A stretch of 64,000 nt of DNA, taken from IMG/VR virus record IMGVR_UViG_3300030329_006583, positions 124,001 through 188,000 of that record; one strand, given 5' to 3'. The first letter of the stretch is position 1, and each line of letters opens with the position of its first letter. Below are positions 1 to 17,000 of the stretch, piece after piece. Source of the DNA: a virus. The notes under the pieces are model-generated. The model searched no databases. It saw nothing but the letters and a program-made list of their open reading frames with translations, and was not told the origin of the DNA. The translations under genes and the position numbers were made by a program.

Positions 1-6
1 ATTAAG

Positions 7-405
7 TGGAGACGCCGGGAATCGAACCCGGGTCCTAAATACCTCCAACATCATGTCATTCACAAGGTTAGCCATTTTACTCTAAACCGGCAAAGTAACT
101 CGAATTATCCCATCCCATATCGAGTATCTGGGATCCACCTGTATAAAAAGGTAATCACTTATTTCTAACTGAAAACCTTTTTTACCACCAGGGTAACCAT
201 TCAGCCCTATTTACTCGAAGGCCAATCGAGTTTTGCTGGTCTTAGTTAAAAAGGCTCCCAGCAGCCTCGGATTAAGCAGCTAGTGCGTAATCGTTGTAAG
301 TGTCAGTGTTGGCACTTATTAAGTTCAGCGTTTTTACAGAGACCTTCGCTGCCCTCTGCCTTGCACATAATGGTTTTGATACTCAGTCGAAACCTTTACA
401 TCCCC
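7..405 (-). ncRNA. ssrA: tmRNA (transfer-messenger RNA)
   Basis: The 5' end GGGGATG (405-399) pairs with CGTCTCC (14-8) to form the acceptor stem, followed by discriminator A at position 7; CCA is not encoded. A T-arm with TTCGATT loop lies at 15-31, and the 5' part carries the tmRNA-typical GGTTTCGACTG. The resume codon is GCC (313-311) and the tag frame ends at TAA (274-272), encoding ANTDTYNDYALAA, which ends in the classical YALAA degron. It would rescue stalled ribosomes and tag nascent chains for ClpXP-type proteolysis. The boundaries come from pairing and could be off by a base. Confidence 0.95.
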
Positions 406-2087: not shown

Positions 2088-3458
2088 TCATGATTCAATC
2101 ACAGAGACTGAAGAATTTTTTAGTTGTTTATAAATTGAAAATGCACTATCAATACCTGACATTAATGCTGTGGTGCCAAAAAGGGATAGGCCAAGTTTTT
2201 TTAAAGAATTATTGATATACACATTTAATAAGTATTCATGTTTTTTTTCTTTAGGATCAAGTAATTCTATATTTTCTAAATCTATTACCCCATAATTTCT
2301 TATATGATAAAACATGTTAAAACCGGATTCTATCCTATCTTTAATAACACCATGCATTTCACCAAATTTACTAGAGATAGAAATTTCTACTTTATTTGCG
2401 GTTAAATTTCTAATTCGTTGGGAAATTAAATTTATTTTATCTCTTTCATTAATTTGTTTTAGTTGTTCCTTTAAATTGGAAACATGAAGATTAACACTAT
2501 GCATAGAATCTTCATGTTCAATAGTGATAATCCCCCTAGAATATTGGGCAGATTTAATATGATTGAAATCATCTAATTTTATAGTAGATATTAATTCCCC
2601 TTTAAGTGATGATCTCACATCCAACCCACATACAGTTGCGATATCATTTAACATATTAATCCCATTTAAATCATAGGGAACACACAAAGGCAATATATTA
2701 AGCATTCCGTTTTTCATATTAACGGCCAATGTATTACATACTTCCGGGGCAAACCCCCTAGCGATAATGATAGTGGGTGAATTATCTTTGGACAATTCTA
2801 GAAATATTTTTTCTATTTCTGATACCCTTTCAATTAATCCTTCTATCACAATAATTTTAACATCATGATATTTCCATTTATTTAATGCGTGATATTGAAT
2901 AAATTCGGTTGGGGGTTTAATTGGGAAATCATAACCTACTTTAATTTCTATAATATTTTCATTTCTGGGTGTATCATTTACGAATACAGAACCAACATTT
3001 TTAGATTCCTGTATGGAATTAACTAAAATATCATAGGTAAATTTATCATGATAATAATTTTGTATGATATGTCGATAATCTTTAAAGGTTGCTTTCCTGG
3101 AATTTAGTGCAAAACTTTTTTTTATAATTGTTTTATCTAGGGGTTGAATATTCAAATCAATTGATTTATAAAGCCCTAATAAACACGAAAGAAAAACATA
3201 ACCACTACCGGTATTCTTTTTTTCATTATTAAATACAGTACCAAGTATTATATCTTTCAGTAGTTTTTGTGATTTATTTTCTACACGGATATCTTTTAAA
3301 ACCCGGGCAAGATCTGCTATTTCTAATTTTCCTAATCTTTTACCATACGTATGATACACACCGGTATTTTGTAATTGTGTAATTACTTCTTTTAAGGACT
3401 TAAAAAAATCATTTCTAGAAACTTTCGTTTCACTTTCAAAAAGTGCCTGGGTATACAT
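2088..3458 (-). CDS. Highly divergent GroEL-like chaperonin
   Basis: A 456-residue protein, shorter than GroEL (about 548). The middle aligns by eye with the GroEL apical domain: IIIARGF..EVCNTLAVNMKNG..NILPLCVPY..NGINMLNDIATVCG matches the IIAEDVEGEAL..LVVNKLRG..KVAAVKAPGFG..R..ML.DIA.LTG block. Then come IKLDDFNHIKSAQ (KATLEDLGQAKR in GroEL), a QLKQINERDK..LISQRIRNLTA helix pair and a TEVEMKEKKARV-like stretch. The nucleotide site looks degenerate: the GDGTTT loop is replaced by NTGSGYV, and the Asp after RVED is not conserved. No GroES gene is visible. It follows PrkA and an 86-residue membrane protein, so it may serve folding of phage proteins or a non-ATPase role. Confidence 0.72.
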   Translation of the reverse strand: MYTQALFESETKVSRNDFFKSLKEVITQLQNTGVYHTYGKRLGKLEIADLARVLKDIRVENKSQKLLKDIILGTVFNNEKKNTGSGYVFLSCLLGLYKSIDLNIQPLDKTIIKKSFALNSRKATFKDYRHIIQNYYHDKFTYDILVNSIQESKNVGSVFVNDTPRNENIIEIKVGYDFPIKPPTEFIQYHALNKWKYHDVKIIVIEGLIERVSEIEKIFLELSKDNSPTIIIARGFAPEVCNTLAVNMKNGMLNILPLCVPYDLNGINMLNDIATVCGLDVRSSLKGELISTIKLDDFNHIKSAQYSRGIITIEHEDSMHSVNLHVSNLKEQLKQINERDKINLISQRIRNLTANKVEISISSKFGEMHGVIKDRIESGFNMFYHIRNYGVIDLENIELLDPKEKKHEYLLNVYINNSLKKLGLSLFGTTALMSGIDSAFSIYKQLKNSSVSVIES

Positions 3459-13265: not shown

Positions 13266-13703
13266 TTATTCAACTGCAACAGAAAATTTCTTTTTTCCGG
13301 TGTTTTCAACAGGAACAGAAATATTGAGAATTCCTGCGTTATAACCCGCCGTTACACCTTCAGCATTCACACCCTCAGGTAGGCTCCATGATCGTGTAAA
13401 TGAAGAACATGAGAATTCACGAGAATTGTAATTAACTGTTTCTTTATCTTCGGCTCCATATGAAGTACCGGTAACAGTAAGGACATTATTTTCAACATCA
13501 ATTTTAAAATCCCCACGAGAAAATCCGGGTGCTGCCACTTCAATGACATACCCTTCATTGGTGGCTGCTACATTGGCGGCCGGCGAATGGGAAGAAAGAG
13601 AGGTACCCCGTTTATTAGCGGGGGCATAAGTAAAGAAAGTACGAAAGAGATCGTCGATATCACGATCAAAACGAGTATTAAAATTAGGAATAAGATTGCT
13701 CAT
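13266..13703 (-). CDS. Small heat-shock protein (Hsp20 family)
   Basis: 145 residues; AAAAGGAG ribosome site. An N-terminal arm (FDRDIDDLFRTFF), then the alpha-crystallin domain (about 45-140) with VAAPGFSRGDFKIDVENNVLTVTG, SFTRSWSLPEGV and the closing AGILNISVP. It is expected to hold unfolding proteins as an oligomer; tailed phages, including cyanophages, often carry Hsp20. A terminator follows immediately. Confidence 0.95.
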   Translation of the reverse strand: MSNLIPNFNTRFDRDIDDLFRTFFTYAPANKRGTSLSSHSPAANVAATNEGYVIEVAAPGFSRGDFKIDVENNVLTVTGTSYGAEDKETVNYNSREFSCSSFTRSWSLPEGVNAEGVTAGYNAGILNISVPVENTGKKKFSVAVE

Positions 13704-13725
13704 TATATTTTTCTCCTTTTATGAA

Positions 13726-13803
13726 TCAATTTAAATCCGGATCCTTTTTACCGGTAAGAACAATATAGTCATAATCATCTTGAGGTACATACCCCAATCG
13801 CAT
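13726..13803 (-). CDS. Possible 25-residue peptide
   Basis: An open frame MRLGYVPQDDYDYIVLTG... between Hsp20 and the next small membrane gene. Composition looks protein-like, but no ribosome site is convincingly placed. Otherwise this 118-base gap holds only the Hsp20 ribosome site. Confidence 0.28.
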   Translation of the reverse strand: MRLGYVPQDDYDYIVLTGKKDPDLN

Positions 13804-13821
13804 TTTTTTACATTTTTCCCC

Positions 13822-13938
13822 CTACATCATAAGTTGGCCAACAATTAATACAAACATAAAGACTGCAATTGCTTGCATGATGGCAATCATAGCCTCGATG
13901 CTGTGTTCATTTCTTTGGTGCTTATTGTCTTTATTCAT
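13822..13938 (-). CDS. 38-residue single-pass membrane peptide
   Basis: The start ATG 13938 has AAGGA 6 bases upstream and lies 3 bases after the preceding gene. A polar N-terminus (MNKDNKHQRNEHS) is followed by one hydrophobic helix (about 16-38). Function unknown. Confidence 0.6.
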   Translation of the reverse strand: MNKDNKHQRNEHSIEAMIAIMQAIAVFMFVLIVGQLMM

Positions 13939-13940
13939 TG

Positions 13941-14609
13941 TTATCCTTTAAGGGTACCATCAACAGCAATCTGGTGACCCTCGAGGGTCGAGATAATATG
14001 AAGATGATTGGCTAGTTTTTCAAGTTTCTTTTCAAACCTACGGATTGTGTTAATTGCTGATTCACGTTTATATTCCATCTTTTTGCGAAGATCATCATTT
14101 CTTTTTTTAAGGGTAGTCACATCACCAATTTCTACAAATGTGGCACTTAAGTCTTCATTAATGTTTGGAAAAAATGTTTTGTACAAGATGAGTGCTTCTT
14201 CATTGTCTCTAGCAAAAATATTGGCATAATGTGTGGTACCATATTTTTGAGTGATGGCGTAAATACCTTGGGTACCTTTACGTTGTAATTGACGAACCGC
14301 ACCCCTAATACGATACCAAATCCGCCTTGAACGTCGTGTGACAGTAGCCGGTGGGAGATCATGATGGGGGGTACCCCATCGATCTTTAACATATGTTCTT
14401 ACACTATCAATTGTGTGAAGCTCAAGATTAAAAAGATCTTCCACACTGTAACCATAGTGTTCAATAGAGGGAATCAAGCGATACCGGTAATCACGTTGTT
14501 CATATTCATAATATCTCTCATTTTCATATGTGAGAGAAACACCGGTGGGGCCCTGAGGGCGTTTAAGCAATAGATCATCGATAATATTATCACGTGAATG
14601 ATCAGGCAT
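13941..14609 (-). CDS. Unknown protein with C-terminal coiled coil
   Basis: 222 residues; ATG 14609 chosen for GGAG 6 bases upstream (two further ATGs lie upstream in frame). Tyr/Arg-rich N-terminal half (YENERYYEYEQRDYRYRL), a YAITQKYGTTHYANIFARDNEEAL segment, and a charged heptad region (about 165-205) that predicts a coiled coil. It is transcribed from the promoter at 14700-14727 with about 90 bases of leader. No family recognised. Confidence 0.7.
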   Translation of the reverse strand: MPDHSRDNIIDDLLLKRPQGPTGVSLTYENERYYEYEQRDYRYRLIPSIEHYGYSVEDLFNLELHTIDSVRTYVKDRWGTPHHDLPPATVTRRSRRIWYRIRGAVRQLQRKGTQGIYAITQKYGTTHYANIFARDNEEALILYKTFFPNINEDLSATFVEIGDVTTLKKRNDDLRKKMEYKRESAINTIRRFEKKLEKLANHLHIISTLEGHQIAVDGTLKG

Positions 14610-14699
14610 GCAAATCTCCATCCTCAAAGAAATGCTAATTGGGTGGTTGAGCGCTGTTAACAACCAGAAGCCAACTTCCCTCAACCAGCTGGTGTATAT

Positions 14700-14727
14700 A
14701 TTATACCACCTAGTTAGCGAATTTGCA
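14700..14727 (-). promoter_or_regulatory. Promoter of the TGCAAA/TATAAT class
   Basis: Minus strand: CGTGCAAA, 16-base spacer, TATAAT (-10 at 14705-14700). It drives the 222-residue gene and those following. Confidence 0.75.
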
Positions 14728-14752
14728 CGTATTGTAATATTAATATTTTAAA

Positions 14753-14977
14753 TTAACGATCTATTTCAGCCCAGGTATCCATGGCATCCTTGATATCACT
14801 AGATTCCCACATATCTACTAGATCAAGAAGTGCATGATATAGTTCTCGGTTAGTTTCTTTATCAACTAATTGAATATCATTTTCAACTACGTTTTCAATG
14901 GTGTGTGAAAAAGAAGAAATTAAATATTTAATTACTGTAAATTCATCATCTGTTAATTCATGTACGTTAATAGACAT
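14753..14977 (-). CDS. Small acidic unknown protein
   Basis: 74 residues from ATG 14977 (AAAGGAG upstream). An acidic, helical protein with FTVIKYLISSFSHTIENVV and a Trp/Asp-rich C-terminus. No recognised family. Confidence 0.6.
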   Translation of the reverse strand: MSINVHELTDDEFTVIKYLISSFSHTIENVVENDIQLVDKETNRELYHALLDLVDMWESSDIKDAMDTWAEIDR

Positions 14978-15026
14978 TTGAACTCCTTTGCCCAAATCCT
15001 AATTAACACTTAAGTTTAGTTAATTC

Positions 15027-15299
15027 CTAATTCGATGAAAATAGAGGGTGTTTAAAGATCAAATAATGACGGGGATAGCCGGGTGTCATAGAATTTAGTT
15101 CAACGTTTCTAGAAACAATCCAACCGGCTAGTTTATATTCCTTGATTATCGGTTTAATGTGATCATACCAATCATCAAACACATAAATTGTTTTACCGTG
15201 TTTAACTTCATAATCAGACCACGTGGATTCTTCAAGGTATTCATTAATTTCCCGAACTATTGATTTTTGTTTGTTGGAAAAAATATCTAAAAGACTCAT
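15027..15299 (-). CDS. Small unknown protein
   Basis: 90 residues, alpha/beta, with VFDDWYDHIKPIIKEYKLAGW and a C-terminal PRHYLIFKHP strand. AAAGGTG lies upstream of ATG 15299. It is followed at 15362 by the 3' piece of a split tRNA. Confidence 0.6.
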   Translation of the reverse strand: MSLLDIFSNKQKSIVREINEYLEESTWSDYEVKHGKTIYVFDDWYDHIKPIIKEYKLAGWIVSRNVELNSMTPGYPRHYLIFKHPLFSSN

Positions 15300-15361
15300 A
15301 TGATGATATCACCTTTTACGCAACAATAAATAAACCTGAAACTGGGTTTATACCCGAAGTT

Positions 15362-15427
15362 TGGTGTTCTCGGTAGGATTCGAACCTACGACCTACCGCT
15401 TAGGAGGCGGTTGCTCTATCCAGGACT
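15362..15427 (-). pseudogene. 3' piece of a split tRNA-Arg(CCU)
   Basis: Contains part of the D-loop (AGTCCTGGATA), the D-stem strand GAGC, an intact anticodon arm with loop CTCCTAA (anticodon CCT), variable loop, T-arm with TTCGAAT, acceptor strand CGAGAAC, discriminator A and encoded CCA. The missing 5' strand GTTCTCG lies 576 bases away at 16016. The stop codon of the HNH gene is inside the D-arm sequence. Nothing here shows that the pieces are rejoined. Confidence 0.8.
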
Positions 15428-15757
15428 TAGGTATTCCTTGAGCTCATCTAAATTGATGCTTCTATTCTCTAAGAATCCAACGCTTGTATTACAATTCCCA
15501 CAAAGAATCCCTCTTATTTTACCTGTCTCGTGGTTATGATCTACGCATGCTGAATATTGTTTAGCCGTACCGTCAAATTCTATTTTGTACTTACACAATT
15601 TACATCTAGAATTTTGTTTTTCTAGAAGCAACTCCCTTTCTGGGCCGGTGATGCCATATCTTTGTCGAGTGTTTCTACACACCCCACACCATCGACCTCT
15701 CTTCGGTTTTAAATTCTCACAACCTTTAGCCGCGCATTTAGCATTGTTTTCTTTCAT
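15416..15757 (-). CDS. HNH endonuclease, endonuclease VII-like
   Basis: 113 residues with an N-terminal CAAKGC...CGVC cysteine set and a second zinc group CKLC...CGNC enclosing ACVDHNHETGKIRGILCGNCN, the hallmark of recombination endonuclease VII-type HNH nucleases. His in the DHNH motif is the expected general base. It lies between an intact tRNA-Arg(CCU) and the 3' piece of a second one. Its last codons (Ser-Pro-Gly-stop) are read from tRNA D-loop sequence, as expected for insertion into a tRNA gene. It is probably a homing nuclease. Confidence 0.88.
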   Translation of the reverse strand: MKENNAKCAAKGCENLKPKRGRWCGVCRNTRQRYGITGPERELLLEKQNSRCKLCKYKIEFDGTAKQYSACVDHNHETGKIRGILCGNCNTSVGFLENRSINLDELKEYLSPG

Positions 15758-15806
15758 ACATATAAATATGTAACTCAGCCCCTAAAGTAACAAATAATTT
15801 AAAATA

Positions 15807-15882
15807 TGGCACCCCGACCAGGATTCGAACCTGGGACCTACCGCTTAGGAGGCGGTCGCTCTATCCTCTGAGCTATCGGGGC
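15807..15882 (-). tRNA. tRNA-Arg (anticodon CCU)
   Basis: 76 nt. Acceptor GCCCCGA/TCGGGGT, D-arm GCTC AGAGGATA GAGC, anticodon loop CTCCTAA (CCT), T-arm CCAGG TTCGAAT CCTGG, discriminator G and encoded CCA. The anticodon and variable region are nearly identical to the split copy next to it, while the acceptor and T-arm differ. Confidence 0.96.
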
Positions 15883-15992
15883 TTAAGCTTCACACTTTCA
15901 GGCTCTATAAGAACGTTCCCTAGGGCTTCATTTGCCTCTCAAAGACAGTCAGCAATTTCACTGGGTATGCCATAATCATCAGCCAACCCCAT
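15873..15992 (-). pseudogene. Short frame interrupted by TGA
   Basis: AGGAG stands 7 bases before ATG 15992, giving MGLADDYGIPSEIADCL, then TGA (15941-15939). The same frame continues EANEALGNVLIEPESVKLKPR to a TAG inside the tRNA-Arg. The composition on both sides of the TGA is protein-like, so this looks like a gene broken by one nonsense change, or a 17-residue peptide. Confidence 0.45.
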
Positions 15993-16003
15993 TAGATCTC
16001 CTA

Positions 16004-16016
16004 GGGCTACGAGAAC
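16004..16016 (-). pseudogene. 5' piece of the split tRNA-Arg(CCU)
   Basis: GTTCTCG pairs perfectly, 7 of 7, with the acceptor strand CGAGAAC at 15366-15372, followed by TA and GCCC (first D-stem strand, one mismatch to GAGC). The short length makes this suggestive rather than certain, but 11 consecutive bases fit tRNA expectation. Confidence 0.6.
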
Positions 16017-16020
16017 AAAT

Positions 16021-16374
16021 TTAAAGATTGATATTATTGGGAAGGTGTTCAAAACGTTTTTCCAAAACGTGAAGTTTTTCCCACACACGAAGAAATCGAA
16101 CTAGGAACATAATTTCTTCATCCGATAGTTTATCTTTAAACACGTGTTTTTCATCCCCTTCATATATAAATTTAAAGACATCATCATCGGTGATATTGGT
16201 GGTAAGCGTATCTAGATCTTTTTTACTGGTGTGGCAGCTTTTACAATTTTGCGTCCAAATGTTACCCGGTGCTACCTTGTCCACCTGAAGATCTTCGGGA
16301 CTTTGGGAGTGAGCGCAATGAGGTAAAATAAAAAAGAACGAAAGCATCAATACAAAAAAACTGACATGTTTCAT
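16021..16374 (-). CDS. Exported c-type cytochrome
   Basis: 117 residues from ATG 16374 with AGGTG upstream. A signal peptide (hydrophobic about 4-18, ending near AHS-QS) and a single CKSCH haem-c attachment motif at about residues 44-48, preceded by APGNIWTQN as in class I cytochromes. A C-terminal helix with Met in DEEIMFLVRFLRVWEK could supply the axial ligand. It would be matured in the periplasm by the host Ccm system. The gene overlaps the methyltransferase stop region, so it is co-transcribed. An electron-transfer gene in a phage-like region is unusual. Confidence 0.82.
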   Translation of the reverse strand: MKHVSFFVLMLSFFFILPHCAHSQSPEDLQVDKVAPGNIWTQNCKSCHTSKKDLDTLTTNITDDDVFKFIYEGDEKHVFKDKLSDEEIMFLVRFLRVWEKLHVLEKRFEHLPNNINL

Positions 16375-16376
16375 AA

Positions 16377-17000
16377 TCACCTAGCAATAACCTTTTTAGT
16401 AAGAGACGGATTAATCATCCGGGCAAGTGTATCACGCACATCCTCTCCCATGGTTGGGGGACATTCATTTCCAATACAGTCCCAATTAACACGATCCCGG
16501 CGAGCAAATATTTCAAGCTTATTCCACTGTGGAAACATTAAATCTAGGGAATCCTGCAGCTGCTCAGGCTTTTGGGAGTGTGTCATGGTTGGATGCATTA
16601 GTAAGTTTCGCTGGGAGTGATTCTCTAAAAATTTGGTGTACTTCCCTTTGACACCAACCAAACATGGTTCATGACAGTTACGACCCAACCGACCCATCCC
16701 AAAGGCCAGCTTGGTGGGATCATTTTTAGATGTCTTACCCCAAATCCAGAGTTGTTTGTAATTAAAACCCCATGCTTTCATTACTTCTAAACCAGACATC
16801 AGGAATGCTGAAGGTACCCAAAGTGCCAAGATACAATTTTCATCGGCAACTGCACCGATCGGAAGACGCTTGATTGCTTCAACATTGAGGGTGGGATACA
16901 TGTTATCAACACCCCTGATAATTTTTCCCCCATATTTAAGTTTATCATCAAAACTCCATGGGGGGTCTGCAACAATTACGCCATATTTTTTCTGAACCAT
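16377..17000 (-). CDS. MT-A70 family N6-adenine methyltransferase
   Basis: 207 residues with the catalytic DPPW at residues 12-15 (VIVADPPWSF), ALWVPSAF, WGFNYKQLWIWGK, HSQKPEQLQD and the SAM-site closing KLEIFARR. These are the MT-A70 group features shared by phage DNA adenine methyltransferases. The likely role is modifying phage DNA against host restriction, or regulation. No restriction partner is seen nearby. Transcribed from the promoter-like site at 17041-17068. Confidence 0.92.
   Translation of the reverse strand: MVQKKYGVIVADPPWSFDDKLKYGGKIIRGVDNMYPTLNVEAIKRLPIGAVADENCILALWVPSAFLMSGLEVMKAWGFNYKQLWIWGKTSKNDPTKLAFGMGRLGRNCHEPCLVGVKGKYTKFLENHSQRNLLMHPTMTHSQKPEQLQDSLDLMFPQWNKLEIFARRDRVNWDCIGNECPPTMGEDVRDTLARMINPSLTKKVIAR

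Follow-up and report, generated by a model that had tools for sequence, protein, structure and literature searches.

In the genome studied here, which is that of an uncultured T4-like phage, a tRNA-Arg(CCU) gene is split at a near-precise point in its D-loop, and its two pieces enclose an intact-looking nuclease gene of the endonuclease VII (EndoVII) type together with a second, intact tRNA-Arg(CCU). On balance, we lean toward a homing-like cassette, in which a free-standing EndoVII-type HNH endonuclease, accompanied by a diverged intact tRNA-Arg(CCU), was inserted into the D-loop of the resident tRNA-Arg(CCU). The window analysed is a stretch of 64,000 nucleotides (positions 124001–188000 of a 267,118-bp virus record), and 266 kb of the genome (532 kb counting both strands) were examined. 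The large terminase subunit is of the T4-like group, with at most 44% identity to the phage records listed; the searches may omit records very near the studied genome. On the minus strand, the locus runs from a 119-aa cytochrome-c-like ORF (ending at 16021) over four bases to the 5′ piece of the first tRNA-Arg(CCU), a probably decayed 39-codon ORF, the intact tRNA-Arg(CCU), the HNH gene, and the 3′ piece of the first tRNA. All coordinates given in an earlier note on this DNA proved correct. The features of the locus are as follows:

15027–15299: 90-aa ORF, flanking the locus on the other side from the 119-aa ORF
15362–15427, minus strand: 3′ piece of the interrupted tRNA-Arg(CCU), from the D-loop remainder through the encoded CCA
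15416–15757, minus strand: HNH endonuclease of the T4 endonuclease VII type, 113 aa (Pfam PF02945, Endonuclease_7, E = 2.7e-18)
15807–15882, minus strand: intact replacement tRNA-Arg(CCU) (ARAGORN; Rfam 69 bits)
15873–15992, minus strand: small ORF, probably decayed (SD-like TAGGAG at 15998–16003, ATG at 15990–15992, TAG at 15873–15875)
16004–16016, minus strand: 5′ piece of the interrupted tRNA-Arg(CCU), GTTCTCGTAGCCC, consisting of GTTCTCGTAGC (16006–16016) and CC
16021–16380, minus strand: 119-aa cytochrome-c-like ORF, stop codon at 16021–16023 (cytochrome c match weak, below the Pfam cut-off)

The accessory genes around the locus (window 13266–17000, minus strand) encode Hsp20, the weak cytochrome c match, and an MT-A70 adenine methylase with distant matches only and no close viral relatives. 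Elsewhere in the window (6–405, minus strand), a phage-encoded tmRNA with the tag ANTDTYNDYALAA was detected (128 bits). No sigma-70 promoter in the region scored above the shuffled controls. The T4-late-like TATAAATA was rejected as a promoter, since it occurs at chance level and lies on the wrong strand.

The 5′ piece contains the 5′ strand of the acceptor, T8 and A9, and the start of the D-stem. It starts 4 nt past the stop of the upstream ORF, which is the place where a gene would begin in a packed phage genome. Its GTTCTCGTAGC is the exact 5′ end of the intact tRNA-Arg(CCU) in the related phage contig IMGVR_UViG_3300020477_000013 (L088; G001 when taken in full). The same 11 bases start the intact tRNA-Arg(CCU) in a pair of jumbo-virus contigs (L087/L089) and in Clostridia, e.g., Butyrivibrio. 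The earlier note had claimed that the two pieces restore a perfect 7-bp acceptor, TA at 8–9, and most of the D-stem. We found 7/7 acceptor pairs between the 5′ and 3′ pieces, T8 and A9 in place, and three of the four D-stem pairs kept (C12 × A23 mismatch). GTTCTCGTAG is present once in the 532 kb of both genome strands, at the 5′ piece only. With up to one mismatch allowed, the 11-mer yielded one match in the window, as compared with 0.35 expected, and this match is exact. The chance of an exact 11-mer on the right strand within the ~640 upstream bases, as estimated from the base composition, is about 1e-4.

The 3′ piece scored 31 bits against the Rfam tRNA model (gathering score 29) and 47 bits (E = 4e-11) against a tRNA model built in this analysis. 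It is 93% identical to the intact G001 tRNA over 58 nt, and the homology to L088 is secure from 15423. ARAGORN called the joined pieces a tRNA, but it also called 55 of 300 controls in which random upstream 13-mers were joined to the 3′ piece. Therefore, neither the folding of the joined form nor the ARAGORN call was accepted as proof of the 5′ piece, the evidence for which is sequence identity. The intact L088 gene reads GTTCTCGTAGC-TCAG-CTGGATAGAGC..., and the window retains GTTCTCGTAGC and CTGGATAGAGC...GAACACCA. When AG at 15427–15426 is counted as A14 G15, the only change is T12C, with no loss and two D-loop bases gained; counted otherwise, four bases (TCAG) are replaced. Aligned to the intact G001/L088 gene, the two pieces thus make up the whole tRNA minus 0–4 D-loop bases, which argues for an insertion and not for a mere truncation. 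On either count, this alignment places the ~580 inserted base pairs at one point of the D-loop.

The HNH protein carries the catalytic and zinc motifs DHNH...CGNCN, i.e., the zinc cysteines and the DH and N motifs of the EndoVII/HNH domain. It matched PHROG 2914 (endonuclease VII) with E = 5e-23 and the T4 endonuclease VII structure (PDB 1e7d) with E = 1e-4, in an alignment that pairs the DH and CxxCN motifs. No other member of its family was found in the 266 kb examined. As the earlier note had read it, the stop codon (TAG, 15416–15418) comes from the disrupted tRNA and lies within GGATAGAGC of the 3′ piece. The homologues end at a similar point after the YL motif, which indicates that the protein is full length, with no more than its last residues encoded by the tRNA. 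No self-splicing intron family was found by Rfam over 15300–16100 down to E = 10, and the gene thus lies outside a self-splicing intron or intein. Its codon usage is not genome-like, which fits a recent arrival and is uninformative on function. The HNH was absent from G001 and from 30 further related contigs, many of which are fragments and which include no positive control genome. This sporadic presence is that of a free-standing homing endonuclease and is expected of a mobile gene. At the 80 IMG/VR loci with related HNH genes, no whole or partial tRNA lay within 1 kb; therefore, the family is not tRNA-bound in the manner of SegB.

The replacement tRNA has an encoded CCA and the acceptor GCCCCGA/TCGGGGT with a G1–U72 wobble. 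It is the only intact tRNA-Arg(CCU) that ARAGORN finds in the 266 kb examined. Compared with the broken tRNA, 44 of 47 core bases are alike (94% over 47 nt), and the differences fall on six of the seven acceptor bases, the T-stem, and the D-loop at the insertion point, where the replacement has TCAG-AGG and the target TCAG-CTGG. By this comparison, the two genes are not tandem duplicates. Its divergence at the break point of the target and in the acceptor fits a substitute that escapes cleavage, and the replacement could plausibly resist a nuclease directed against the D-loop region of the broken tRNA. The exact source of the replacement had no match in the viral or bacterial collections.

The earlier note had described the segment between the pieces as an endonuclease VII-like HNH gene and an intact tRNA with the same anticodon; both are there, and it missed the ORF at 15873–15992. 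This ORF encodes MGLADDYGIPSEIADCL (17 codons) up to an in-frame TGA (15939–15941), and read-through gives EANEALGNVLIEPESVKLKPR. Its TAG sits inside the intact tRNA, just as the HNH stop is located inside a tRNA. The frame has the best codon-usage score of the six (+0.23 bits/codon; the other frames are negative), and the 121 bases before the replacement tRNA are therefore probably a gene remnant. No homologues were found in phages, Pfam, or PHROGs. The presence of this remnant points to another phage genome as the origin of the cassette, from which a gene end, a tRNA, and the HNH would have been taken together. A 9-nt direct repeat, CCTAGGGCT, was observed at window positions 15919–15927 and 16000–16008. 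One of its copies overlaps the end of the 5′ piece, and both code for ALG in the frame of the decayed ORF.

An uninterrupted tRNA-Arg(CCU) at the same place in related phages, proposed in the earlier note as a check, was not found, although an intact gene is present elsewhere in G001. Many proteins of G001 are homologous to those of the studied genome, often at 55–80% identity and in long collinear inverted blocks, and the terminases are 82% identical. Judged from these identities, G001/L088 is a true relative. Its structural and replication genes are collinear with those of the studied genome (G000); the tRNA-bearing accessory region is scrambled, and the tRNA loci differ. The intact tRNA-Arg(CCU) of G001 adjoins genes whose counterparts lie at ~213.8 kb in the studied genome, where there is no tRNA. 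From its sequence, this gene is an allele without the interruption, at a different locus. Among the 31 related records searched (30 obtained through the terminase, and L088), it was the only tRNA-Arg(CCU), and none had the HNH. Neither an uninterrupted allele at the studied locus nor a syntenic or homologous locus was found in any collection searched. The 5-kb locus DNA matched phages only at tRNAs, and searches with a 247-aa ORF, the 90-aa ORF, and the cytochrome-like ORF yielded no relatives. The earlier note named two findings that would count against its reading: related genomes with the same arrangement and no intact tRNA allele, or a 5′ piece absent from all homologous loci. Neither was encountered, as the searches yielded no locus homologous to this one.

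No second copy of the architecture comprising a split tRNA, an HNH, and a replacement was found. As a separate observation, the 453-kb virus contig L087 has a tRNA 5′ half (2859–2904, minus strand; acceptor, D-arm, and anticodon loop with CAT) that runs straight into a DUF559 (Vsr-like) nuclease gene (2286–2858, minus strand), and L089 shows the same. In both contigs, no 3′ half precedes the next tRNA, and no substitute was seen nearby. Apparently, this is another tRNA broken by a nuclease gene.

With the above results in hand, the homing-like cassette can be set out as a sequence of steps. The original allele would have been an uninterrupted GTTCTCGTAGCTCAG..GAACACCA between the 119-aa and 90-aa ORFs. 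The nuclease would nick or cut the uninterrupted tRNA-Arg(CCU) gene (GTTCTCGTAGCTCAGCTGGATAGAGC) of a co-infecting phage near the D-loop, and repair would copy the cassette, with the two tRNA halves acting as the flanking homology. The resident tRNA would be destroyed in this process, and the carried tRNA would provide the lost anticodon and would not be cut, since its sequence differs at the cut region. In this way, the cassette would resemble a selfish gene that makes good its own damage. The earlier note had named a homing element that destroys its tRNA target and supplies a cleavage-proof substitute. The anatomy behind this reading (an interrupted tRNA-Arg(CCU), an HNH, and the only intact tRNA-Arg(CCU) in 266 kb) stood; DNA cutting, the tRNA target site, homing, and the resistance of the replacement are what we infer. 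In favor of the homing-like cassette, we counted that the HNH ends near the natural family end while abutting the target tRNA half. Counted against it were the single instance on one contig, the missing uninterrupted allele at the locus, the lack of tRNAs near the HNH family, and the decayed-gene appearance of the 121 nt before the intact tRNA, by which the cassette is not minimal. The wider proposal, to which we give a little less than even credence, is that a phage homing endonuclease cassette directed at a tRNA gene brings along a whole tRNA with the identical anticodon that resists cleavage, whereby homing would exchange one tRNA allele for another (‘tRNA swapping’).

The strongest competitor is a passive insertion, in which foreign phage DNA (the gene end, the tRNA, and the HNH) entered the tRNA by break repair. 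The HNH would have its target elsewhere, the replacement would be a chance passenger by which the loss could be tolerated, and there would be no ongoing homing at this tRNA. The decayed ORF upstream of the intact tRNA, the HNH relatives not tied to tRNAs, and the lack of a second copy of the architecture are all consistent with this course of events. However, it leaves two coincidences unexplained: the carried tRNA has the anticodon of the broken one, and the HNH lies immediately next to the target half. Selection for an AGG decoder could account for the former. We regard a passive insertion as rather unlikely, though deserving of serious consideration.

Much less probable is a truncation, in which the HNH overwrote the 5′ end of the second of two tandem tRNA-Arg(CCU) genes, and the upstream GTTCTCGTAGC is due to chance or is a remnant of another tRNA. 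The 47-nt stretch common to the two tRNAs at 94%, the many random 5′ pieces accepted by ARAGORN, and the 5′ piece being in frame with the decayed ORF would agree with such an event. Against these stand the exact 11-nt match to intact alleles, for which the chance is about 1e-4, the 7/7 acceptor pairing, the uniqueness in 532 kb, and the location of the 5′ piece right after the upstream stop.

The remaining explanations are weaker still. Restoration of the tRNA is typical of integrase-type elements, and a remnant of such an element, integrated at the tRNA and restoring it through a carried copy, would fit in this respect. The defining feature is lacking, with no integrase among the annotated neighbors, and the D-loop insertion with a whole diverged tRNA is not a 3′-end duplication with identical att repeats; we consider this origin very improbable. 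Rejoining of the halves at the RNA level, as a split or intron-bearing tRNA with the cassette as an unusual intron, would agree with the intact pairing in both halves and with the joined form being called a tRNA and folding well. This is scarcely credible given that Rfam found no group I or II intron, that the break lies in the D-loop, and that an intact tRNA sits inside the putative intron. A group I intron in a tRNA gene, which would need a group I core and splice-competent halves, was rejected in particular, as Rfam gave no match. An assembly chimera of two similar tRNA genes might be suspected in a metagenomic contig with an exact run of about 22 nt common to the two tRNAs, but word sizes in assembly usually exceed this run, the locus lies in the interior of the contig, and neither junction lies in the shared block, which makes it equally hard to credit.

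By analogy, the precedent nearest in mechanism is found in mitochondria, where a mobile ORF (mORF) interrupts a gene and supplies a foreign end in its place, as first described for Allomyces atp6 and later for Glomus atp6, atp9, cox2, and nad3 (PMC3630166). In both cases, an endonuclease gene sits in a host gene, a diverged substitute saves the function, and the native displaced end remains alongside. Here too, the element carries a diverged copy of the gene it interrupts, the intact tRNA-Arg(CCU), which appears functional from its sequence. The mitochondrial mORFs encode LAGLIDADG or GIY-YIG enzymes and replace the 3′ end of a protein by fusion, whereas here an EndoVII-type HNH comes with an entire, separate tRNA gene in a phage. 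We did not file the cassette as an mORF, because the tRNA copy is complete and separate and does not fuse to the native part, although it works like one.

The free-standing EndoVII-motif homing endonuclease F-CphI of cyanophage S-PM2 represents a mode of homing established in T4-like cyanophages (PMC6083498). The likeness lies in the EndoVII catalytic motif, the free-standing gene, the T4-like phage, and the protection of the genome by a neighboring change at the target. F-CphI acts on psbA and a group I intron protects, whereas here the putative target is a tRNA gene and protection would come from the replacement gene. SegB of T4/T6 is a free-standing phage homing endonuclease that lies among tRNA genes and cuts in them (PMC2988022, PMC13096335), and its tRNA association is family-wide (PMC13096335). 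Like the present HNH, it is a phage endonuclease between tRNA genes, and it spreads tRNA alleles; unlike the cassette here, it is a GIY-YIG enzyme and neither splits a tRNA nor brings a substitute. Assignment to the SegB type was ruled out by the HNH/EndoVII domain and by the 0/80 relatives within 1 kb of a tRNA. Genes of the HNH/MobE type split phage genes, e.g., nrdA of Aeh1 (PMC2988022, PMC10448857), and there a free-standing HNH likewise lies inside a split host gene. However, Aeh1 nrdA works as two pieces, which a tRNA split in the D-loop cannot do, and here a substitute is supplied. Judged by these likenesses, the present case combines features of the mORFs, F-CphI, and SegB.

In the open literature, we found no earlier description of phage tRNAs that are interrupted or disrupted in association with homing endonucleases. 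To our knowledge, the strategy of an ‘endonuclease with replacement part’ is known only from fungal mitochondria. The tRNA sets of phages shift, and host nucleases that act against phages target tRNAs. If the proposed reading is true, a selfish nuclease that disrupts a tRNA gene while supplying a version of its own would directly drive the turnover of tRNA alleles in phages, and the ‘endonuclease with replacement part’ strategy would be extended to tRNA genes.
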